Origin: Acidipropionibacterium timonense
GTDB taxonomy: Bacteria; Actinomycetota; Actinomycetes; Propionibacteriales; Propionibacteriaceae
NCBI RefSeq assembly: GCF_900605005.1
Contig: NZ_LR027558.1
Location: 443,140 to 507,139 of the forward strand
Length of the DNA stretch: 64,000 bases
Direction: 5' to 3'
Shown: positions 54,225 through 64,000 of the stretch, one piece after another
How the letters are laid out: every line of letters starts with the position of its first letter
Numbering within the stretch: position 1 is the stretch's first letter
Translations under genes and position numbers: made by a program
The notes under the pieces: model-generated
Told to the model about the DNA's origin: nothing
What the model saw: the letters and a program-made list of their open reading frames with translations, nothing else
The model's database searches: none

Positions 54225-55274
54225 TCAGCGTCGGGGGTCGATGGCGATCTTGATCCCCGCGTGGCCGGTGACGGCGTCGATGGCCTCGCGCCACTGGGAC
54301 AGCCCGAAGGTGTGGGTGACGATCGGCTTCTCGTCGATGGTCCCGGCGGCGAGCATGTCGACGGCTCGGTGGACGTCGGCTCGGCGGGCGTTGGAGCCGC
54401 CGCTCACGGTGAGTTCGTTGTAGTGGACGGTGTTCGGCTGGACCGTCGCCGAGCTGCCCTTGGGGAACCCGGCGAACCAGCTCACCCGGCCGCCCGGGGC
54501 GGCCAGGTCGAGGGACTGGTCGGCGATCTCGTTGCGTCCGATGGCGACGACGACGACGTCGGCCCCCCACCCGCCGGTGACCTCGGCGACGGTGGCGACC
54601 AAGGAGTCGGGGGAGGCCGTGAGTGCCCCGAGGGCGGTGGCCCGCTCCCGGCGATCGGCGTGCTTCTCGCAGAGGATGACCTGTCGTGCCCCGCAGGCCA
54701 GTGCCAGCTGGGTGTGCAGCAGGCCGATGGCCCCGCCGCCGATGACGACGACGGTCTCACCCGGGTTGACCCCGCCGTGCCGGGTATGACCGTTGAGGAC
54801 GCACGACAACGGCTCCGACAGGGCCAACCGGTTGGCGGGCAGCTCCCGCGGGCTGACGATGACGTTGCCGCGGCTCACCGCCCGGGCCGGCACGAGGAGG
54901 TACGGCGCCAGACCGCCGTCGATCCCGTAGCCGATGAGCTCCATCGACTCGCACAGGTGTTCCCGGCCCGCCAGGCAGGCCCGGCACACCCCGCACGACA
55001 GGACGATGGACACCGTCGCCTGGCAGCCGGGAGCCAGGCCCGTGACGCCCTCGCCGACCGCCTCGATGCGCCCGGCGACCTCGTGGCCGAGGGTCACCCC
55101 GGGGCGCACCCCGCTCGTCTTCTGGCCGCTGATGATGCGTAGGTCGGTGCCGCAGATCGTCGTCGCCTCGACTGCCAGGAGCACCTCGCCGGGGCCGGGT
55201 GTCGGAACGGGCTTGTCGGTGAGGGCGACCTCCCCGGGGCCGAGCAGGGTGAGGGCGGGCATGGAGTTCGACAT
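54225..55274 (-). CDS. Zinc-dependent alcohol dehydrogenase (polyol dehydrogenase-like)
   Basis: A 349-residue medium-chain dehydrogenase. Catalytic zinc ligands lie in ATTICGTDL and LGHEVAGRI; the structural zinc is held by CGVCRACLAGREHLC. The cofactor fold is VVVIGGGAIGLLHTQLALACGARQVILCEK (NAD type). The overall pattern is close to threonine/sorbitol/galactitol-1-phosphate dehydrogenases. GAAGGAG precedes ATG 55274. It diverges from the fused DhaK-DhaL kinase with a shared AT-rich control region, suggesting joint use in polyol or ketose metabolism. Confidence 0.88.
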   Translation of the reverse strand: MSNSMPALTLLGPGEVALTDKPVPTPGPGEVLLAVEATTICGTDLRIISGQKTSGVRPGVTLGHEVAGRIEAVGEGVTGLAPGCQATVSIVLSCGVCRACLAGREHLCESMELIGYGIDGGLAPYLLVPARAVSRGNVIVSPRELPANRLALSEPLSCVLNGHTRHGGVNPGETVVVIGGGAIGLLHTQLALACGARQVILCEKHADRRERATALGALTASPDSLVATVAEVTGGWGADVVVVAIGRNEIADQSLDLAAPGGRVSWFAGFPKGSSATVQPNTVHYNELTVSGGSNARRADVHRAVDMLAAGTIDEKPIVTHTFGLSQWREAIDAVTGHAGIKIAIDPRR

Positions 55275-55417
55275 CGTGGCGTCTCCTTCGAGCACGAAGT
55301 AACATGAGTCATGATGATTCTCTCATCGTTGATGATGATCATCGCGGTAATCCACATCACACCGCCACTCGCCCGGACCACGGTGGCCCGGACCGACCCA
55401 TGGGAGGCACGTCCGTC
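55275..55417. promoter_or_regulatory. Divergent control region of the dehydrogenase and kinase genes
   Basis: This AT-rich patch contains the perfect palindrome GATGATCATC (55334-55343) and repeated ATGATGA/TCATGATGA blocks between 55303 and 55345. It separates two divergent starts and probably holds both promoters and a regulator site. No -35/-10 pair stands out clearly enough to mark. The palindrome differs from the dyad at 59248, so a different regulator may act here. Confidence 0.45.
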
Positions 55418-57109
55418 ATGACCCGACTCGTCAACGATCCCGTCGATTTCCCGGCCCAGGCCGTCGCTGGCCTGGCCAGCGCCTTCCCGAACCATCTGCG
55501 ACCGGTGTTCGGTGGCGTCGTGCGCGCGACCCGCACCGAGCCCGGCAAGGTGGCCCTCGTCGTCGGCGGCGGGTCGGGCCACTACCCGGCCTTCGCCGGC
55601 TGGGTCGGCCAGGGATTCGCCGACGGGGCGGTGTGCGGCAACATCTTCGCCTCGCCCTCGGCCGCCCAGGCGCACGCCGTGTGCAAGGCCGCCGATCGCG
55701 GCGCCGGGGTCCTCATCGGCTTCGGCAACTACGCCGGTGACGTCCTGCACTTCGGACAGGCCGCCGAACGACTGCGCAACGAGGGCATCGACGCCCGCTG
55801 CATCCTTGTCACCGACGACATCGCCTCGGCCGGGCCCGACGAGCACACCAAGCGCCGCGGCATCGCCGGTGACCTGCCGGTGTTCAAGGTCACCGCAGCC
55901 GCCTGCGAGCAGGGCCTGGGCATCGACGAGGTGGAGCAGGTCTTCCAGCGCGTCAACGACCGCACCCGCTCCTTCGGCGTCGCCTTCAGCGGCTGCACCC
56001 TGCCGGGCGCCGACGGCCCGCTGTTCCGCGTCGAGCCCGGTCAGATGGGCGTGGGCATGGGTATTCACGGGGAGCCCGGCATCCACGACGCCGCCCTGGG
56101 CACCTCCGACGACGTCGCCGCCCTCCTCGTCGAGGGGCTGCTCGCCGACCGCCCCGAGAACCCGGGCAGCCGGGTCGTCCCCGTCGTCAACGGCCTGGGC
56201 GACACCAAGTACGAGGAGCTCTTCGTCCTGTGGAACGATATCCGCCGTCGGCTCGTCGACGCCGGTCTGGAGGTCGTCGACCCGCAGGTCGGCGAGTTCG
56301 TCACGAGCCTCGACATGGCCGGCGTCTCGCTCACCCTGGTGTGGCTCGACGAGGTCATCGAACCGCTGTGGCTGGCCCCCTGTGACACCCCGGCCTTCCG
56401 TCGCGGGGCCGTCGACGCCGCCGCCCTCGACACCACCGAGCTGCCCCAGGAGGCCGAGCAGGTGAGCGTCGCCGAGCCCGGGACCGAGGCCTCGTGGCAG
56501 GTCGCCGGCAGGGTCGTCGAGGTGCTCGACGCCGTCGGCGCGGTGCTGGCGGCCCAGCAGGAGGAGCTCGGCCGGCTCGACGCCGTCGCCGGGGACGGGG
56601 ACCACGGCATCGGCATGGCGAGGGGGTCGGCCGCCGCGGCCGCCGAGGCATCGCGTGTCGCGTCCCAGGACGCCGGCGCGGCGACCACCCTCACCGCTGC
56701 CGGTGCCGCCTGGTCGGAGCACGCCGGGGGCACCTCCGGTGCCCTGTGGGGTGCCCTGCTCACCGCCGTCGGGTCGCAGCTCGGAGACGACCGCGGAGCC
56801 GACGAGGTCGACCTGCCCGAGGCCTTCGCCGCCGCCCTCGACGCCGTCGTGCGACTCGGTGGGGCGCAGGTCGGGGACAAGACGATGGTCGACTCGATGA
56901 GCCCCTTCGTCGCCGCCCTCCGGTCCGACGCAGCCTGGGCCGAGGCGGTGTCCGCGGCCCGGGCCGGGGCAGACTCGACCAAGGACCTCGTCGCCCGTCT
57001 GGGACGTGCGCGGCCGCTGGGGGAGCGGTCCCTGGGCACCCCCGACCCCGGTGCGGTGTCCTTTGTCACGGTCGTCGAGACGGTCGGACACGCCCTCGGC
57101 AAGGACTGA
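55418..57109 (+). CDS. Fused DhaK-DhaL kinase (dihydroxyacetone/erythrulose kinase-like)
   Basis: A 563-residue ATP-dependent ketose kinase with both domains in one chain. DhaK (about 1-330) shows VVGGGSGHYPAFAGWVGQG, CGNIFASPSA and the substrate-binding H217 in GVGMGIHGEPG, equivalent to the His that forms a hemiaminal with the ketose. DhaL (about 360-563) has DAVAGDGDHGIGMARG and EHAGGTSGALWGALL for Mg-ATP. No PTS DhaM gene is near. The same architecture is used by dihydroxyacetone kinases and by actinobacterial L- or D-erythrulose kinases. The start is ATG 55418. Confidence 0.9.
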   Translation: MTRLVNDPVDFPAQAVAGLASAFPNHLRPVFGGVVRATRTEPGKVALVVGGGSGHYPAFAGWVGQGFADGAVCGNIFASPSAAQAHAVCKAADRGAGVLIGFGNYAGDVLHFGQAAERLRNEGIDARCILVTDDIASAGPDEHTKRRGIAGDLPVFKVTAAACEQGLGIDEVEQVFQRVNDRTRSFGVAFSGCTLPGADGPLFRVEPGQMGVGMGIHGEPGIHDAALGTSDDVAALLVEGLLADRPENPGSRVVPVVNGLGDTKYEELFVLWNDIRRRLVDAGLEVVDPQVGEFVTSLDMAGVSLTLVWLDEVIEPLWLAPCDTPAFRRGAVDAAALDTTELPQEAEQVSVAEPGTEASWQVAGRVVEVLDAVGAVLAAQQEELGRLDAVAGDGDHGIGMARGSAAAAAEASRVASQDAGAATTLTAAGAAWSEHAGGTSGALWGALLTAVGSQLGDDRGADEVDLPEAFAAALDAVVRLGGAQVGDKTMVDSMSPFVAALRSDAAWAEAVSAARAGADSTKDLVARLGRARPLGERSLGTPDPGAVSFVTVVETVGHALGKD

Positions 57110-57236
57110 ACGGCCGGCCCATGAGGTCGTCGAGCCCCCGCCTCATCCAGCGGGACGTCCCCCGTGCCGGCGGCGCCGGTCCGGTGCGGGGCTTCCCGAC
57201 CGCGGGCTCGGTCGGCCGAGGTGCGGCGGACGGACG

Positions 57237-57740
57237 TCAGCGGGCCGTGACCGGAGGCTTGGCGCTCCACGGGAAGACGATCCACCTGTCGGTGACCCGC
57301 CACTGGAAGTCCGGCTGCACCACGGTGCGCGGCTTCGTGTAGAGCACCGCCGAGCGGACGTCGGCCCCGAACCCGCGCAGCAGCTTGAGGACGAGCGCCA
57401 GGGTCCGCCCCGAGTCGGCGACGTCGTCGACGACGAGGATTCGCTTGCCGCGGATCGAGTCGGTGTCGAGCATCGGGGCCAGCAGCACCGGGTCGGCCAG
57501 GGTCTCCTCGACGTCGGTGTAGAACTCGACGTTGATGGCGTCGGTGAGCTTGACGCCCAGGGAGTAGGTGAGCGCCCCACCGGGGATCATGCCGCCGCGT
57601 GCCACGGCGATGAGGACCTCGGGGCGGAACCCGGAGTCGGCGACCTGTCGAGCGAGCTCCTCCTGGGCCTGTCCGAAGAGATCCCAGGTGAGCACCTCCT
57701 TGTCGGTGAGGTCGGTGGAGTCTGCGTGGTACGCGGTCAT
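57237..57740 (-). CDS. Purine-type phosphoribosyltransferase (Gpt/hypoxanthine-like)
   Basis: From ATG 57740 the protein is 167 residues, a type I PRTase. The PRPP-binding signature is RILVVDDVADSGRTL (two adjacent Asp). VLIAVARGGMIPGGALTYSLG holds the PPi loop. The ending RWIVFPWSAKPPV resembles xanthine/hypoxanthine PRTases of the Gpt type. It belongs to purine salvage, not to the surrounding sugar genes, and is oppositely oriented to them. Confidence 0.88.
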   Translation of the reverse strand: MTAYHADSTDLTDKEVLTWDLFGQAQEELARQVADSGFRPEVLIAVARGGMIPGGALTYSLGVKLTDAINVEFYTDVEETLADPVLLAPMLDTDSIRGKRILVVDDVADSGRTLALVLKLLRGFGADVRSAVLYTKPRTVVQPDFQWRVTDRWIVFPWSAKPPVTAR

Positions 57741-57788
57741 GGGCACACCCTACCGATGCCCCTGCGCTCCCGACCTGGCACCCGGGGC

Positions 57789-58286
57789 TCAGTCGAGGAC
57801 GAGCTGGTACAGGACGACCTCACGCCAGCTGTCGAACTTGCGCGCGGCCTGGGGGATCCGGCCCACCTCGCGGAACCCGAGCCGGGCGTGGAAGCGCAGG
57901 CTGGCCTCGTTGTCGGCGTCGATGACCGCGACGAAGCAGTGGATCGCCGCCGCCCTCGCCCGCGCGGTGAGTTCGGCCATGAGGGCCGTGCCGACCCCCT
58001 GTCCGCGGACCTCGTCACACAGCCAGATGCTCGTCTCGGCCGTCGGGTCGTAGCCGGGCAGGTCACGGAACTGGTGATGGCAGGCGTAACCGACGGGTTC
58101 CCCGTCGATCTCGGCGACGAGCACCGGCCGTCCCTGGGCGACGAGGTCGGTCCACCAGGCGGTGCGTTGGTCGACGGTCGCCTCGACGAGGGCGTAGGAC
58201 GAGGTCGTCCGCACTGCGGCGCTGTTGTACAGGGCGGTCATGGCCGGGATGTCCTCGGCCCTCATGTCACGGATGAGGGTGCTCAC
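57789..58286 (-). CDS. GNAT family N-acetyltransferase
   Basis: A 165-residue GNAT enzyme with IRDMRAEDIPAMTALYNSA at the N-terminus and the acetyl-CoA-binding VRGQGVGTALMAEL (R/QxxGxG/A). The C-terminal INADNEAS-like segment (AVIDADNEASLRFHARLGFREVGRI) matches the phosphinothricin-acetyltransferase-like (Pat/YwnH) subgroup that acetylates amino acid analogues. The start is GTG 58286. It lies between two parts of the sugar cluster without an evident link. Confidence 0.88.
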   Translation of the reverse strand: MSTLIRDMRAEDIPAMTALYNSAAVRTTSSYALVEATVDQRTAWWTDLVAQGRPVLVAEIDGEPVGYACHHQFRDLPGYDPTAETSIWLCDEVRGQGVGTALMAELTARARAAAIHCFVAVIDADNEASLRFHARLGFREVGRIPQAARKFDSWREVVLYQLVLD

Positions 58287-58403
58287 GGCCGGTAGCCTAC
58301 GGTCGCGTCCACCCCGTCCCGTCGCCGTCTCGGCACCCGGCGGACCACGGTCGCGACGGCGACATCGGTCCCCACCCACCACCCCGGAGAACCAGAGGCA
58401 CTC

Positions 58404-59219
58404 ATGAGCACCAAGAAGCCATCCGCACCGGTCGGACCGCGGGCCCGTCAGCTCGCGATCGCCCAGGCCGTCATCCGCAACGGCTCGGCGAGCATCGACG
58501 AGCTCGTCGCCCTCACCGGGGTCTCGGCCATGACGGTGTACCGCGACCTCACCTCCCTCGAGGACAGTGGTGTCCTGCAGCGCCATCGCGGGCTCGTCGT
58601 CGCGGTCGCCAGTGGACTGCACGAGGCCGACGCCGAGTTCCGGCTCGAGCAGAGCTCTGCCGAGAAGCGTGCCGTGGCGGCCTGCGCCGGCCAGCTCATC
58701 GGTGCGGGCAGCTCGATCATGCTCGACGACTCCACCTCGGCGGTGTGGGTGCTGCGGTCCCTGCCGGATCTGTCGGCGGTGACGGTCGTGACGAACTCCC
58801 TCCTCGTGGCCAGGGAGGTCACCGATGTCGCCAGGTCCGAACGGCTCGTCGTCACCGGGGGGGAGTACCAGGCCTGGGCCCACGCCCTCATGGGGCCCGC
58901 CGCGGTGCGCACCATCCGCTCCATGCACGCCGACACGTGCATCGTCTCGGCCTCGGGCATCTTCGAGACGGGCTGCTACCACCCCTACCAGGAGGTCGTC
59001 GAGGTCAAGCGGGCCATGCTCGACTCGGCCGAGTCCAAGGTGCTCCTGCTCGACCACACGAAGTTCAACCGTCGTGCCCTCTTCAAGTTCGCTGATCTGC
59101 AGGAGTTCGACCACGTCATCGTCGACGCGCTCACCCCGGCGACCGTCATCACGCACCTCGAGGGACTGGGGGTCCAGGTGACCGTCGCCACCGGCGAGGG
59201 TGAGAATCCCAACATCTGA
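58404..59219 (+). CDS. DeoR family transcriptional regulator
   Basis: The 271-residue repressor has an N-terminal HTH at about 18-60 (ARQLAIAQAVIRNGSASIDELVALTGVSAMTVYRDLTSLEDSGVLQ) and a C-terminal sugar-phosphate-sensing DeoRC domain with LDDSTSAVWVL, VVTNSLL and ESKVLLLDHTKFNRRALFKFADL. DeoR proteins respond to phosphorylated sugars. It is followed by a promoter region with a perfect dyad (59248-59266) and then the rpiB operon, its most likely target. Confidence 0.92.
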   Translation: MSTKKPSAPVGPRARQLAIAQAVIRNGSASIDELVALTGVSAMTVYRDLTSLEDSGVLQRHRGLVVAVASGLHEADAEFRLEQSSAEKRAVAACAGQLIGAGSSIMLDDSTSAVWVLRSLPDLSAVTVVTNSLLVAREVTDVARSERLVVTGGEYQAWAHALMGPAAVRTIRSMHADTCIVSASGIFETGCYHPYQEVVEVKRAMLDSAESKVLLLDHTKFNRRALFKFADLQEFDHVIVDALTPATVITHLEGLGVQVTVATGEGENPNI

Positions 59220-59247
59220 GCGCAATTCACAGAGTTTCATGGTGTCT

Positions 59248-59266
59248 CTAACACAAGTCGTGTTAG
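59248..59266. promoter_or_regulatory. Candidate DeoR operator
   Basis: CTAACAC-AAGTC-GTGTTAG is a perfect 7-base dyad with a 5-base spacer, 29 bases after the deoR stop and 55 bases before the rpiB ATG. A TTCACA (59226-59231) upstream and a TAACAC overlapping the left arm could form a promoter covered by the operator. The region is AT-rich in contrast to the flanking genes. Confidence 0.65.
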
Positions 59267-59321
59267 TTTCTGGTCTGTCGGGCGATGGCCCGACGGCTCG
59301 CAACGAGGCACCGGAGGAACC

Positions 59322-59819
59322 ATGGGATTTCGTATCGTCGTCGCCGCCGATCCGGCCGGCGTCGACTACAAGGACACCATCAAGGCCGATCTGGAGGCCG
59401 ACCCCAGGGTCGACGAGGTCATCGACGTCGGCGTGACCAAGGGGGAGAACACCCTCTACCCGCACGTCGGCATCGCCGGGGCCAGGCTCATCGTCGAGGG
59501 GAAGGCCGACCGCGGCATCTTCTTCTGCGGCACGGGCATGGGCATGGCCATCTCGGCCAACAAGGTGCCGGGCATCCGGGCCTGCACCGCCCACGACAGC
59601 TTCTCGGTGGAGCGTCTCATCATGTCGAACGACGCCCACGTCCTGTGCCTCGGCCAGCGTGTCATCGGTCGTGAGCTCGCCCGGCGTCTGGCCCGCGAGT
59701 TCCTCGACTACACCTTCGACCCGTCGTCCCACTCCAAGGCCAACGTCGACCTCATCGAGGCCTACGAGAAGGGCGCCGTCGACGGTGCCCAGATCGCCGG
59801 AGCCGGCGAGAGCTGCTGA
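59322..59819 (+). CDS. rpiB: RpiB/LacAB family sugar-phosphate isomerase
   Basis: A 165-residue isomerase with the catalytic Cys C69 in [27 protein letters not shown] and the late [15 protein letters not shown]. The N-terminal [14 protein letters not shown] differs from housekeeping ribose-5-phosphate isomerase B (usually DHAG), and is closer to RpiB homologues of polyol pathways such as erythrulose-4-phosphate isomerases. GGAGG precedes ATG 59322. It is the first structural gene of the DeoR-linked operon. Confidence 0.9.
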
Positions 59820-59938
59820 CCCCGGCCCCGGGCGGACGTCGCGAGGGCGTCCGTCCGGGTCGGTCCGCCGGCGCGGGAGCCGGTGGACCATCACCATCAC
59901 CCGGCGCGGGGCCTACCCGCCAGACCTGAGGAACACAG

Positions 59939-61018
59939 TTGTTCACAGCATCCATCGGAGTCTTCCTCTTCGGACTCCTCGCCGCCATCGCAGGTGGCGC
60001 AGTCGGTGCCGCCATCGGCGGCAACTACGCCTTCGTCCTCACCGGTTTCGCCGTCCTGGCATCCTGGGGCATGTTCGCGGCCACGGGCAACACCTTCGGC
60101 TTCGACTACCTGGCCTTCGGCCCGTTCATGGGCCCGCACATCGCCTTCGCCGGTGGGGTGGCCGGTGCCATCTACGCCCGCTACCGCGGTCACCTCGGTG
60201 ACGGCAAGGACGTCAACACGCCGCTGGCCGGCCTGGGGCGCCCGGACATCCTCCTCGTCGGTGCCGTCTTCGGTGTCTTCGGCTACCTGTGCCAGATGGG
60301 CGTGGCCAACCTCCCCTGGTTCGGCAAGCACACCGACTCCGTCGCCCTCACCGTCCTGCTGTCCAACCTCCTGGCGCGCCTCGTCTTCGGTGGTGTTCCC
60401 GGCAAGGGTCTGTTCCACGGTTCACTTCACAACCCCGAGCTCTTCCACGAGGGGGCCACGAGCTTCCCGGCCAAGATCAAGCCCGGCCCCAACGGTCGCT
60501 GGCTGGAGTGGCAGGAGAAGCCGAGCCAGCTCATCACCATCGGCTCGCTCTTCGGCATCCTCGCCGGCGGTGCCTCGCTCTTCCTGGCGGCCAACGTCGG
60601 TGCCCGCCTCACCAAGCTCGGGTTCGCCAACAGCCTGGCCGCCGCGAACGCCAATTCCTTCACCTTCGGCATCTCGGCCGTCATCATTCTCTTCCTCATC
60701 ACGAACCGGAACATGCCGGTCCAGCACCACGTGACGAACATCGCCGGCCTGGCCGCCATCCAGTTCTTCCCGCTGCTCATGGGCAAGACCTTCGCGACGT
60801 ACACCTGGACCGCCACGAGCACGTGGGACTCCCACACCTGGCTCATGGCCTTCCTGGCCCTCGTCATCGCCGCGATCTTCGGCATCTTCGCCGCCGGTCT
60901 GGCCGAGTTCTGCGCCCGCCTCTGGTACGACCGCGGCACGAGCCACATCGACCCGCCGGCCGCCGCCATCTGGCTGTCCAACACCGTCGTCGTCACCCTG
61001 GCAGCCCTGCTGTCCTGA
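59939..61018 (+). CDS. Unrecognised ten-helix integral membrane protein, candidate transporter
   Basis: A 359-residue protein with about ten hydrophobic segments and Gly-rich helices: SIGVFLFGLLAAIAGGAVGA, AFGPFMGPHIAFAGGVAGAI, ILLVGAVFGVFGYLCQMGV, LITIGSLFGILAGGASLFLA, HVTNIAGLAAIQFFPLLMG and ALVIAAIFGIFAAGLAEFCA. A hydrophilic stretch of about 45 residues in the middle (GKGLFHGSLHNPELFHEGA to WLEWQEKPS) breaks the hydrophobic pattern. It is not MFS, SSS, ABC or PTS EIIC by any motif I know. The start is TTG 59939 after GAGGA. Position inside a polyol operon with no other transporter in view makes it the likely importer; this is inference. Confidence 0.7.
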   Translation: MFTASIGVFLFGLLAAIAGGAVGAAIGGNYAFVLTGFAVLASWGMFAATGNTFGFDYLAFGPFMGPHIAFAGGVAGAIYARYRGHLGDGKDVNTPLAGLGRPDILLVGAVFGVFGYLCQMGVANLPWFGKHTDSVALTVLLSNLLARLVFGGVPGKGLFHGSLHNPELFHEGATSFPAKIKPGPNGRWLEWQEKPSQLITIGSLFGILAGGASLFLAANVGARLTKLGFANSLAAANANSFTFGISAVIILFLITNRNMPVQHHVTNIAGLAAIQFFPLLMGKTFATYTWTATSTWDSHTWLMAFLALVIAAIFGIFAAGLAEFCARLWYDRGTSHIDPPAAAIWLSNTVVVTLAALLS

Positions 61019-61051
61019 CGACCTCCACCCCCTCATCCCAAGGAGCACACC

Positions 61052-61894
61052 ATGGGTGTCCCGACGCAGTTCCACGACGCCTACGTCTTCGACATGGACG
61101 GCACCATCTACCTGGGCGACCACCTCCTGCCGGGAGCCAGGCGCATGATCGAGGAGCTCCGACGTCGGGACATCCCGGTGCGCTTCCTCTCCAACAACCC
61201 CACCAAGGACCCGGCCCAGTACGTCGAGAAGCTGGCCCGGCTCGGTCTGCCGACCGACATCGAGGACATCTCGAACACCGTCGTGACGACGACCCACTGG
61301 CTCGTGGCCAACCACCCCGACGCCAAGGTCTTCGTCGTCGGCGAGGAGCCGCTCAAGAACGCCCTGCGTCAAGCCGGCATCGAGCTGTCCGAGGACCCCG
61401 AGCAGATCGACATCGTCCTGGCCTCCTACGACCGGGGATTCGACTACTGCAAGCTCCAGATCGCCTTCGACGCCATCTGGTTCCACAAGCGGGCCTTCCT
61501 CATCCAGACCAACCCCGACCGGTTCTGCCCCTTCCCCGGAGGTCGGGGAGAGCCGGACTGCGCCGCCGTCACGGCGGCCATCGAGGCCTGCACCGGCACC
61601 ACCTGCCGGGTGAGCCTCGGCAAGCCCTCACCCATCATGCTCGAGCAGTCACTGGCCGGTCTCGACGTCGACCAGTCCAACTGCGTCATGGTGGGTGACC
61701 GGCTGCAGACCGACATCAGGATGGCCGTCGACGCCGGCATGCTCTCGGCATGCGTCCTCACCGGTGAGGCGACGGCCCAGGACGTCGAGGATCTCGAGCC
61801 GGCGCAGCGGCCGACCTGGGTCCTCGACCGGATCGACCGACTCATCCCCGCCGCCGTGTGGGACGAGCTCGGCTGGACCGACACCGACGACTGA
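61052..61894 (+). CDS. HAD-IIA family phosphatase (NagD/AraL-like)
   Basis: A 280-residue HAD phosphatase with a C2 cap. Motif I is YVFDMDGTIYLG (D14, D16), motif II LSNNPTKDP, the motif III Lys lies near LGKPSPIML, and motif IV is CVMVGDRLQTDIRMAVDAG. The family includes NagD and B. subtilis AraL, which dephosphorylates assorted sugar phosphates and is thought to protect against their build-up. AAGGAG precedes ATG 61052, 33 bases after the membrane protein stop. Confidence 0.9.
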   Translation: MGVPTQFHDAYVFDMDGTIYLGDHLLPGARRMIEELRRRDIPVRFLSNNPTKDPAQYVEKLARLGLPTDIEDISNTVVTTTHWLVANHPDAKVFVVGEEPLKNALRQAGIELSEDPEQIDIVLASYDRGFDYCKLQIAFDAIWFHKRAFLIQTNPDRFCPFPGGRGEPDCAAVTAAIEACTGTTCRVSLGKPSPIMLEQSLAGLDVDQSNCVMVGDRLQTDIRMAVDAGMLSACVLTGEATAQDVEDLEPAQRPTWVLDRIDRLIPAAVWDELGWTDTDD

Positions 61895-61955
61895 TCCCGC
61901 GCGGACCGAACGACGGTCCATCGACGACACTCATCTCAGAGAAGAGAGACCCTCC

Positions 61956-63515
61956 ATGCTTGACCACGGCCCCTACCTCCTCGGCATCGACTACGGCACC
62001 GAGTCCTGCCGCGTCGCGATCTTCGATCTCCAGGGGCGCCCGCTCACCTTCGCGGCCACCCCGTACCGCACGACCCACCCGCGCCCGGGCTGGGCCGAGC
62101 AGGACCCCAAGGACTGGTGGAACGCCCTCCAGGCCTCGTGCCACCGCGCCATCGCCAATGCCGGGATCTCCCCGGCCGCCATCGCCGGCATCTCCTACGA
62201 CGCCACCACCCTCACCATGGTCGCCATGAACGACAAGGGCGAGGAACTGCGCCCGGCCATCATGTGGATGGACGTGCGCGCCACCGAGCAGGCGGCCCGC
62301 GCCGAGGGCTCGGACTCGGTCGCCCGCCTGTACAACGGCGCCGGGACCTCCCCGGCCACCGCCGAGTGGTACCCCTTCAAGGCGGCCTGGCTCAAGGAGA
62401 ACGAGCCGGCCACCTACGAGGCCGCCACGCACCTCGTCGACGCCCCCGACTGGGTCACCTACAAGCTCACCGGCGAGTGGACGACGAACATCAACTCGGC
62501 TGCCATCCGGATGTACTACAACCGGGACAAGGGGGGATGGCCGGTCGACTTCTACGAGACCATCGGCTGCGGCGACGTCTTCGACAAGATCCCCGACCGG
62601 GTCCTCGACCTCGGCACCCCGGTCGGCGCCCTCGGCGTCATCCCTGCCCAGCTGCTGGGCCTGCGTCCCGGGATCCCGGTCGCCCAGGGCCCCGCCGACG
62701 CCTGGGCCGGCCAGATCGGTCTGGGCGTGCTGGCCCCCGGGTCGATGGCCCTCATCACCGGGTCGTCCCACGTCCTCACCGGTCAGTCGGCCACGGAGAT
62801 CCACGGCCAGGGCTTCTTCGGGGCCTACACCGACGGCGTCATGCCCGGGCAGTACACCGTCGAGGGCTCCCAGGTGTCCACCGGATCGGTGCTCAAGTGG
62901 TTCAAGGACAACTTCGCGGTCGACGTCACCAATGCCGCCGAGAAGGTCGGGCTCAATCCCTACGACGTCCTCAATGAACAGTCCAGGAACATCCGGCCCG
63001 GTTCCGACGGTCTCATCATCAACGAGTACTTCCAGGGCAACCGGACCCCGTACACCGATTCGAAGGCCCGCGGCATCATCTGGGGCCTGTCGCTGTCGCA
63101 CACCCCGGCGCACTTCTACCACGCCATCCAGGAGTCGGTCTGCTACGGCAACGCCCACAACCTGCGCGCCATGAAGGCCGCCGGCTTCGAGGTCGACAAG
63201 ATGGTCGCCTGCGGTGGCGCCACCAAGAGCCGCGACTGGATCCAGATGCACGCCGACGTGTCGGGAGTGCCCATCGCCCTCACCGAGGTGGGTGACGCCG
63301 TCGTCCTGGGTACCTGCATGGTGGCCGCCGTCGGCGCCGGACTCTTCAAGGACCTGCCCGAGGCCGCCGCCTCGATGGTCCACGAGATCGACCTCCTCGA
63401 GCCCGACCAGCAGCGCCACGAGGAGTACCGGTTCTACGTCGACAAGTACTGCGAGACCTACCCGAAGCTGCAGTCGATGATCCACGAGACCGTGGACCAC
63501 GAAGCCGCTCACTGA
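61956..63515 (+). CDS. FGGY family carbohydrate (polyol/ketose) kinase
   Basis: The 519-residue kinase starts at ATG 61956 with YLLGIDYGTESCRVAIFD (ATP phosphate loop). MWMDVRATEQA and DAPDWVTYKLTGEW are typical of ribulokinase/EryA-like FGGY kinases. GADAWAGQIG-like PADAWAGQIGLG and the C-terminal ADP site MVACGGATKSRDWIQMHADVSGVPI complete it. The family phosphorylates polyols and ketoses such as ribulose, ribitol and erythritol. In this operon an erythritol or pentitol substrate is plausible. Confidence 0.9.
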   Translation: MLDHGPYLLGIDYGTESCRVAIFDLQGRPLTFAATPYRTTHPRPGWAEQDPKDWWNALQASCHRAIANAGISPAAIAGISYDATTLTMVAMNDKGEELRPAIMWMDVRATEQAARAEGSDSVARLYNGAGTSPATAEWYPFKAAWLKENEPATYEAATHLVDAPDWVTYKLTGEWTTNINSAAIRMYYNRDKGGWPVDFYETIGCGDVFDKIPDRVLDLGTPVGALGVIPAQLLGLRPGIPVAQGPADAWAGQIGLGVLAPGSMALITGSSHVLTGQSATEIHGQGFFGAYTDGVMPGQYTVEGSQVSTGSVLKWFKDNFAVDVTNAAEKVGLNPYDVLNEQSRNIRPGSDGLIINEYFQGNRTPYTDSKARGIIWGLSLSHTPAHFYHAIQESVCYGNAHNLRAMKAAGFEVDKMVACGGATKSRDWIQMHADVSGVPIALTEVGDAVVLGTCMVAAVGAGLFKDLPEAAASMVHEIDLLEPDQQRHEEYRFYVDKYCETYPKLQSMIHETVDHEAAH

Positions 63516-63541
63516 CCCCACATCAGAGGAGACACATCATC

Positions 63542-64000
63542 ATGTCCGAACTCATCGAGAAGGCCCTGGCCGACTGCGACGACACCGACGTCGTGGTCAT
63601 GGGGATCGACGTCCTCGACCAGACCGGCCCCACCTTCCGCACGCTCTTCGGTGACGCCAAGGCCATCATCGTCGCCGACGGCAACACCTGGGGGGTCGCC
63701 GGGGAGGCCGTGACGTCGTCGCTCACCGCGGTCGGAGTCGAGCTGGGCGAGCCCCTGCTCTTCCCGGCCCATCCGACCGTCTACGCCAGCTACGAGAACG
63801 TCGAGAAGGTGCGCGACCACCTGGCCGGCCAGGACGGGATCGCCGTCTCGATCGGTTCGGGCACCCTCAACGACCTCACCAAGCGAGCCAGCGACGAGCT
63901 CGGCCGCCGCTACATGAACGTGTGCACCGCCGCCTCGATGGACGGCTACGCCGCCTTCGGCTCGTCCATCACCGAGAACGGCTTCAAGCACACCATGAGC
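63542..64000 (+). CDS. araM: sn-Glycerol-1-phosphate dehydrogenase-like protein (AraM type), partial
   Basis: The first 153 residues of an iron-containing-alcohol-dehydrogenase-fold protein are present; the rest lies beyond the window. The NAD-binding region has AIIVADGNTWGVAG and VSIGSGTLNDLTKRAS. The following VCTAASMDGYAAFGSSITENGFKHT is the AraM/EgsA substrate and metal signature. In B. subtilis araM lies in the arabinose operon next to the HAD phosphatase gene araL, as a HAD-IIA gene is near here. AGAGGAG precedes ATG 63542. It may oxidise a polyol phosphate of sn-1 stereochemistry. Confidence 0.88.
   Translation, partial: MSELIEKALADCDDTDVVVMGIDVLDQTGPTFRTLFGDAKAIIVADGNTWGVAGEAVTSSLTAVGVELGEPLLFPAHPTVYASYENVEKVRDHLAGQDGIAVSIGSGTLNDLTKRASDELGRRYMNVCTAASMDGYAAFGSSITENGFKHTMS

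Follow-up and report, generated by a model that had tools for sequence, protein, structure and literature searches.

A conserved actinobacterial operon of Acidipropionibacterium timonense with a candidate role in tetritol catabolism

The propionibacterium Acidipropionibacterium timonense (assembly GCF_900605005.1, contig NZ_LR027558.1) carries a group of genes which may encode a sugar-alcohol catabolic system at the right end of a 64,000-nucleotide stretch of DNA, referred to here as the window (C1:443140-507139 of the 2.8 Mb genome). A Zn-dependent dehydrogenase gene (ZnDH) diverges from the gene of a fused DhaK-DhaL kinase (DhaKL) and is followed to the right by genes for a DeoR-family regulator, an RpiB-type isomerase, a ten-helix membrane protein, a HAD-IIA phosphatase, an FGGY kinase and a homologue of AraM, a member of the sn-glycerol-1-phosphate dehydrogenase (G1PDH) family (Table 1). 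This gene set, its order and the divergent arrangement at its left end had been predicted from the sequence alone, and every named gene was recovered by a check of the open reading frames and by profile searches. Absent from the original prediction are a phosphoribosyltransferase and a GNAT acetyltransferase gene which sit on the minus strand between DhaKL and DeoR, and ZnDH/DhaKL therefore form a separate unit. From DeoR to AraM the intergenic gaps are 26-119 bp. The start of DhaKL is placed at MTRLVNDP in an open reading frame which itself opens at 55304, and the complete AraM of 452 amino acids (L005:3682-5040, C1:506681-508039) extends about 0.9 kb beyond the window end. It had also been suggested that the isomerase missing from the pathway might lie to the right of the window; inspection of this region instead revealed AraB and a transketolase, after which a PGA_cap gene on the opposite strand closes the cluster. 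In what follows, gene content, conservation and clade membership are observed, and all substrates and reactions are inferred.

Table 1. Features of the locus; positions are those of the window unless given as genome coordinates (C1).
Feature	Position	Strand	Evidence and candidate role
Zn-dependent medium-chain dehydrogenase, threonine/sorbitol dehydrogenase-like	54225..55295	-	ADH_N/ADH_zinc_N; candidate erythritol/L-threitol dehydrogenase (EltD role)
Fused DhaK-DhaL kinase	55418..57109	+	Dak1 361 bits, Dak2 153 bits, PRK14479 723 bits; candidate L-erythrulose 1-kinase (LerK role)
Phosphoribosyltransferase	57237..57746	-	Conserved Acidipropionibacterium neighbour; not thought to be a pathway member
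GNAT acetyltransferase	57789..58283 (start approximate)	-	Not thought to be a pathway member
DeoR-family regulator	58404..59219	+	DeoRC 142 bits
Perfect 7+5+7 palindrome CTAACAC-AAGTC-GTGTTAG	59248..59266	.	Between DeoR and RpiB; putative DeoR operator
Second, specialised RpiB paralogue, EryI/DerI clade	59322..59819	+	141 bits; candidate D-erythrulose-4-phosphate isomerase
Ten-helix membrane protein	59939..61018	+	No Pfam, NCBIfam or PDB fold match; putative polyol transporter
HAD-IIA phosphatase, NagD/phosphoglycolate phosphatase/AraL kind	61052..61894	+	Profile match; 40/42 loci
FGGY kinase, start MLDHGPY	61956..63515	+	FGGY_N/FGGY_C; candidate erythritol kinase forming D-erythritol 4-phosphate (EC 2.7.1.27)
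AraM/G1PDH-family dehydrogenase	63542..64000, cut by window end	+	Fe-ADH_2 (PF13685) 96 bits
AraB (L-ribulokinase), second FGGY protein, right of window	about C1:508060-509724		TIGR01234 and best PDB match
Transketolase, right of window	C1:509784-511943		After AraB

The conservation of the operon was surveyed at 42 loci, mostly from other genera or families, in which an FGGY kinase at least 50% identical to that of the window occurs together with AraM and sufficiently long flanks. HAD-IIA is present at 40 of these loci, RpiB at 35, the membrane protein at 34 and DeoR at 28, followed by AraB (27), transketolase (18), the L-ribulose-5-phosphate 4-epimerase AraD (12), ZnDH (10) and DhaKL (7). Because HAD-IIA, RpiB and the membrane protein recur with FGGY and AraM mostly in other genera or families, the linkage of the operon genes is beyond chance. 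The core, consisting of the membrane protein, HAD-IIA, FGGY, AraM and usually RpiB, is present in dozens of actinobacteria, among them propionibacteria of cheese and of skin. The comparison genomes near that of the window include Cutibacterium avidum ATCC 25577 and C. modestum M12, and the order DeoR-RpiB-membrane protein-HAD-FGGY-AraM-AraB-transketolase is kept in six of the eight other genomes grouped with it, with a broken kinase in two of the six; the remaining two (G002 and G005) have neither the FGGY kinase nor the membrane protein, and the extra RpiB is missing from them as well. A. jensenii and A. thoenii have ZnDH, DhaKL and the phosphoribosyltransferase ahead of the operon and AraD between AraB and the transketolase. 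The same order without AraD is found in the Acidipropionibacterium genome G057, which by elimination is A. acidipropionici, formerly Propionibacterium pentosaceum. A further genome, which we take to be that of P. freudenreichii DSM 20271, has the order DhaKL-triose-phosphate isomerase (TIM)-DeoR-(SDR)-RpiB-membrane protein-HAD-FGGY-AraM-AraB-transketolase.

Loux et al. listed this P. freudenreichii locus with two araB genes, araM and araL (PMC4437456). These names, together with the G1PDH activity of Bacillus subtilis AraM, which stems from the ara operon, would support a cluster accessory to arabinose metabolism and without a substrate of its own, in which AraM forms sn-glycerol 1-phosphate and AraL detoxifies. 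However, no AraA is seen in the cluster, which is conserved as a unit with a DeoR of its own, an additional RpiB, the orphan transporter and a further FGGY kinase, making this explanation very improbable.

ZnDH accompanies DhaKL and the operon in Acidipropionibacterium genomes and lies near DhaKL and AraM in Rubrobacter radiotolerans, and in most genomes the second unit stands alone at its locus, without ZnDH or DhaKL. Since a plasmid of R. radiotolerans, far outside the family, holds both units (ZnDH, DeoR, the membrane protein, transketolase, FGGY, DhaKL, HAD-IIA, AraM and RpiB within 19 kb), the ZnDH/DhaKL unit and the DeoR-to-transketolase unit probably belong together functionally. The palindrome between DeoR and RpiB, of which the GTGTTAG half-site is kept in several Acidipropionibacterium loci, is a putative DeoR operator. 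The RpiB promoter and the region between ZnDH and DhaKL were found to share no regulator motif; co-regulation of both units is presumptive. Variants of the gene set occur in other relatives. The operon of G027 (L032:4276-5004) contains AraD and is without AraM, and at four loci (L091, L092, L086 and L095) AraM adjoins AraB, with AraD in two of the four and without the FGGY kinase, HAD-IIA or the membrane protein, which suggests a further AraM-linked pentose/pentitol module.

The RpiB of the operon is an additional paralogue. Among 13 genomes compared it is present only in those bearing the operon; of the genomes grouped with that of the window, the two without the operon have the housekeeping RpiB only. 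Rhizobial RpiBs encoded together with a TIM, among them EryI from the ery locus of Shinella, are 39-42% identical to it, compared with about 30% for the housekeeping RpiB, and in a tree with few outgroups it falls into one clade with EryI (98/95). In P. freudenreichii, the second TIM, between DhaKL and DeoR, groups with rhizobial EryH/TpiB at 100/98 and apart from TpiA (44-48% versus 35-38% identity) and is recognised by the NCBIfam model which also recognises Shinella EryH. The window DhaKL is 51% identical to the P. freudenreichii DhaKL adjoining this TIM. DhaKL is also found with an EryH-like TIM in relatives of the same family, as DhaKL-RpiB-TIM in G012 and DhaKL-TIM in G029, and in G025 an RpiB-DhaKL pair and an EryH-like TIM lie about 6 kb apart; the RpiBs of G012 and G025 are 58-62% identical to that of the window. 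These groupings correspond to the LerK-LerI-DerI set of Mycobacterium smegmatis as given in PMC10733421. The weak TIM homologue at C1:287119 is unlikely to be an EryH: it is of the PRK04302 type and part of a locus with a glucitol-type phosphotransferase system (PTS), a DXR-like (DRL) reductoisomerase and YjbQ. Such loci (L054:2480-8785, C1 about 281,500-287,800; L055:7160-17939; L060) might, speculatively, take up or break down a branched polyol, for example 2-C-methylerythritol, and in G011 the PRK04302-type TIM adjoins ispD-ispF and an FBA-type aldolase.

Erythritol kinase (EC 2.7.1.27) has been described in propionibacteria, and its product D-erythritol 4-phosphate is the reduction product of D-erythrose 4-phosphate. 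The original prediction held that the carbon next to the phosphate of this compound has the handedness of sn-glycerol 1-phosphate, which our own check bore out: C3 matches C2 of sn-glycerol 1-phosphate in geometry, and the R/S labels of the two carbons differ solely by a change of priority. It is proposed that AraM oxidises D-erythritol 4-phosphate to L-erythrulose 1-phosphate, in line with work of 1968 on the metabolism of the latter in P. pentosaceum, known here from its title as cited by PMC4437456 and PMC10733421. Brucella forms the opposite hand and therefore needs an epimerase; the AraM route would need none. In the alignment, AraM residues D134, H262/H266 and H283, presumably the metal ligands of the family, are invariant. 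In the window genome a second AraM (49% identical) adjoins the glucitol-type PTS IIA gene (L144:7906-9983, C1 about 1,555,000), second AraMs beside glucitol-type PTS genes also occur at L142 and L143 (46-49% identity over the three loci), and the corresponding AraM of G057 is near PTS IIBC genes. This location beside glucitol-type PTS genes suggests that AraM-family proteins act on polyol phosphates.

Alternatively, AraM could oxidise free erythritol, with FGGY or AraB then forming D-erythrulose 4-phosphate and RpiB D-erythrose 4-phosphate, a sequence which needs no TIM, would explain the single TIM of the Cutibacterium relatives and accords with the inclusion of glycerol dehydrogenases among iron-type dehydrogenases. 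The best AraM matches, however, are G1P dehydrogenases (126.7 bits versus 37-56 bits for glycerol dehydrogenases), the PTS genes beside the second AraM make a polyol phosphate, and both erythritol kinase and, by the cited title, L-erythrulose 1-phosphate are described in propionibacteria, so that oxidation ahead of phosphorylation appears quite improbable.

The FGGY kinase is not an EryA orthologue, as it shares 23% identity with Shinella EryA, and a literature search found no link of AraM or of this kinase to erythritol. The candidate EC 2.7.1.27 gene is present in the A. acidipropionici-like G057. In G003 (L030:6609-8159), which is probably C. acnes, an in-frame stop at codon 138 interrupts this gene, and in C. 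modestum (L040:6664-8216) it is frameshifted, the operon being otherwise largely intact in both; G003 also retains a decayed AraD between DeoR and RpiB. Biotypes of C. acnes are defined partly by erythritol fermentation; the main text of PMC2924382 gives the test definitions, but not the erythritol result of the single lineages, among them that with the broken kinase.

The ten-helix membrane protein matches no Pfam or NCBIfam family. Its AlphaFold2 model, built from 49 sequences, has a mean pLDDT of 93.4; the best match to PDB folds has an E-value of 0.056, with TM-scores below 0.27 among the matches listed. No internal repeat could be established: the full halves do not align, and sub-regions gave a weak, non-significant hint. 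The protein is found in 42 of 149 genomes of the bacterial family, and distant relatives adjoin glycerol-kinase and glycerol-3-phosphate-dehydrogenase genes (glpK/glpD) on a Microbacterium plasmid and alcohol and aldehyde dehydrogenase genes on a Rhodococcus plasmid. A role as polyol transporter is the natural inference.

Taken together, the locus probably (about 0.6) encodes a system for the breakdown of sugar alcohols, with tetritols at its centre, and is the likely genetic basis of the biochemically described erythritol pathway of propionibacteria. Erythritol would enter through the orphan ten-helix protein, be phosphorylated by FGGY to D-erythritol 4-phosphate and be oxidised by AraM to L-erythrulose 1-phosphate, on which L-threitol or L-erythrulose would converge through ZnDH and DhaKL. 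In P. freudenreichii an EryH-clade TIM would then form D-erythrulose 4-phosphate by isomerisation; the window genome might use TpiA, a different TIM or, instead, an aldolase at this point, and according to PMC10733421 TpiA and LerI possibly share activity. The EryI/DerI-clade RpiB would produce D-erythrose 4-phosphate, which the transketolase would pass on to the pentose phosphate pathway. The probable role of HAD-IIA is to clear sugar phosphates that lie off the path or a ketose 1-phosphate derived from ribitol, and AraB, with AraD where present, may form a pentitol side branch. Novelty lies in the way in which the enzyme families, all of them known, are combined, in the role proposed for AraM and in the transporter. 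The further proposal that AraM, of the G1PDH family of archaeal lipid synthesis, has been turned into a D-erythritol-4-phosphate dehydrogenase in actinobacteria, giving a pathway which is shorter by one epimerase, uses a polyol transporter of new fold, corresponds to the orphan propionibacterial pathway and lies behind the C. acnes erythritol biotypes, is tentative and falls somewhat short of even odds.

Several observations weigh against a tetritol system. The curated models are ambiguous for the operon RpiB: it scores 141 bits in the D-erythrulose-4-phosphate isomerase model NF051858, below the cut-off of 240, and 168.7 bits in an actinobacterial ribose-5-phosphate isomerase model, just above the cut-off of 168.2. 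The window genome, whose TIMs are TpiA and the PRK04302 type, yielded no EryH orthologue, nor did its Cutibacterium relatives, which have TpiA only, and EryH lies within 9.5 kb at only one of the 42 loci; this missing isomerase is the weak point of the FGGY-AraM route in the window genome. DhaKL and ZnDH are linked at only 7-10 of the 42 loci, and a 2023 paper notes that cleavage of L-erythrulose 1-phosphate has been suggested for P. pentosaceum (PMC10733421). Erythritol and ribitol are both fermented by 21 of 21 P. freudenreichii strains, in which the erythritol pathway was reported as not found (PMC4437456), and by A. jensenii (PMC6920887), and the frequency of AraB and AraD in the survey points to L-ribulose. 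The locus could accordingly be read as a ribitol operon, in which FGGY would form D-ribitol 5-phosphate, AraM L-ribulose 1-phosphate, HAD-IIA L-ribulose, AraB L-ribulose 5-phosphate and AraD D-xylulose 5-phosphate for the transketolase, while RpiB balances the pentose phosphates. D-ribitol 5-phosphate has an AraM-compatible hand at the reacting carbon, AraB is an L-ribulokinase by model (TIGR01234, 663 versus a cut-off of 583 bits), the operons of A. jensenii, A. thoenii and numerous Actinomycetaceae include AraD, as does that of one relative without AraM, and the near-universal HAD-IIA is given a role. Against this, a homologue search found no clear L-ribulose-5-phosphate 4-epimerase in the operon-bearing, otherwise near-complete genomes G001 and G004, 15 of the 42 loci have neither AraB nor AraD, and the EryI-clade RpiB and EryH-clade TIM would be left without a role. 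In the window genome AraB is present and AraD absent from the operon, and a 53% AraD-like gene occurs elsewhere. A ribitol operon is considered unlikely, and a mixed tetritol/pentitol system retains an appreciable probability. D-arabitol as main substrate, which fits the AraM hand and AraB, was rejected, being fermented by none of the P. freudenreichii strains (PMC4437456). The tetritol assignment of the original prediction thus stands in part: it gains from the EryI-clade RpiB, the EryH-clade TIM beside DhaKL in P. freudenreichii, the DhaKL/TIM/RpiB groupings and the presence of the operon in erythritol fermenters, and loses by the lack of an isomerase to the right, the lack of EryH in the window genome and the fit of AraB and AraD to ribitol.

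If the tetritol reading is true, it would provide genes for the propionibacterial erythritol enzyme activity and pathway of the 1960s, unfound in 21 sequenced P. freudenreichii strains, and would amount to a third way for bacteria to use erythritol, one with a shorter path than in Brucella. It would also name a new transporter family and offer a testable basis for the differences between C. acnes erythritol biotypes, and bacterial 'sn-glycerol-1-phosphate dehydrogenase' (AraM) genes need then not imply archaeal-type lipids.

Like the ery pathway of Brucella and Rhizobium, the proposed pathway would begin with a kinase, pass through a ketose 1-phosphate and an RpiB of the EryI clade and exit at D-erythrose 4-phosphate, and the Shinella ery locus has a comparable DeoR-TIM-RpiB neighbourhood. 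Unlike it, the window FGGY is not EryA-like, AraM stands in place of the GlpD-like EryB (profile searches found no GlpD-family gene among the window cluster genes), the hand of the phosphate would be opposite, making the EryC epimerase needless, and the window genome has no EryH gene. The EltD-LerK-LerI-DerI set of Mycobacterium smegmatis, compared here by its description in PMC10733421, resembles the window locus in its Zn-dehydrogenase and DhaKL with an RpiB, and P. freudenreichii in addition in its TIM. A LerI-like TIM was, however, not found at the window locus or in its right flank, and the locus adds the FGGY-AraM branch, AraB, the transketolase and the orphan transporter. For the P. pentosaceum erythritol pathway, the later steps of which have been suggested to include an aldol cleavage, the literature search found no gene assignment; A. 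acidipropionici, as identified by elimination, holds the operon, and FGGY and AraM would give the kinase and the intermediate of that pathway. Finally, the cluster shares araB, araL (HAD-IIA), araM and, in relatives, araD with the B. subtilis araABDLMNPQ operon, but is without araA or an ABC transporter and instead adds an FGGY kinase, an EryI-clade RpiB, a transketolase and the orphan membrane protein.

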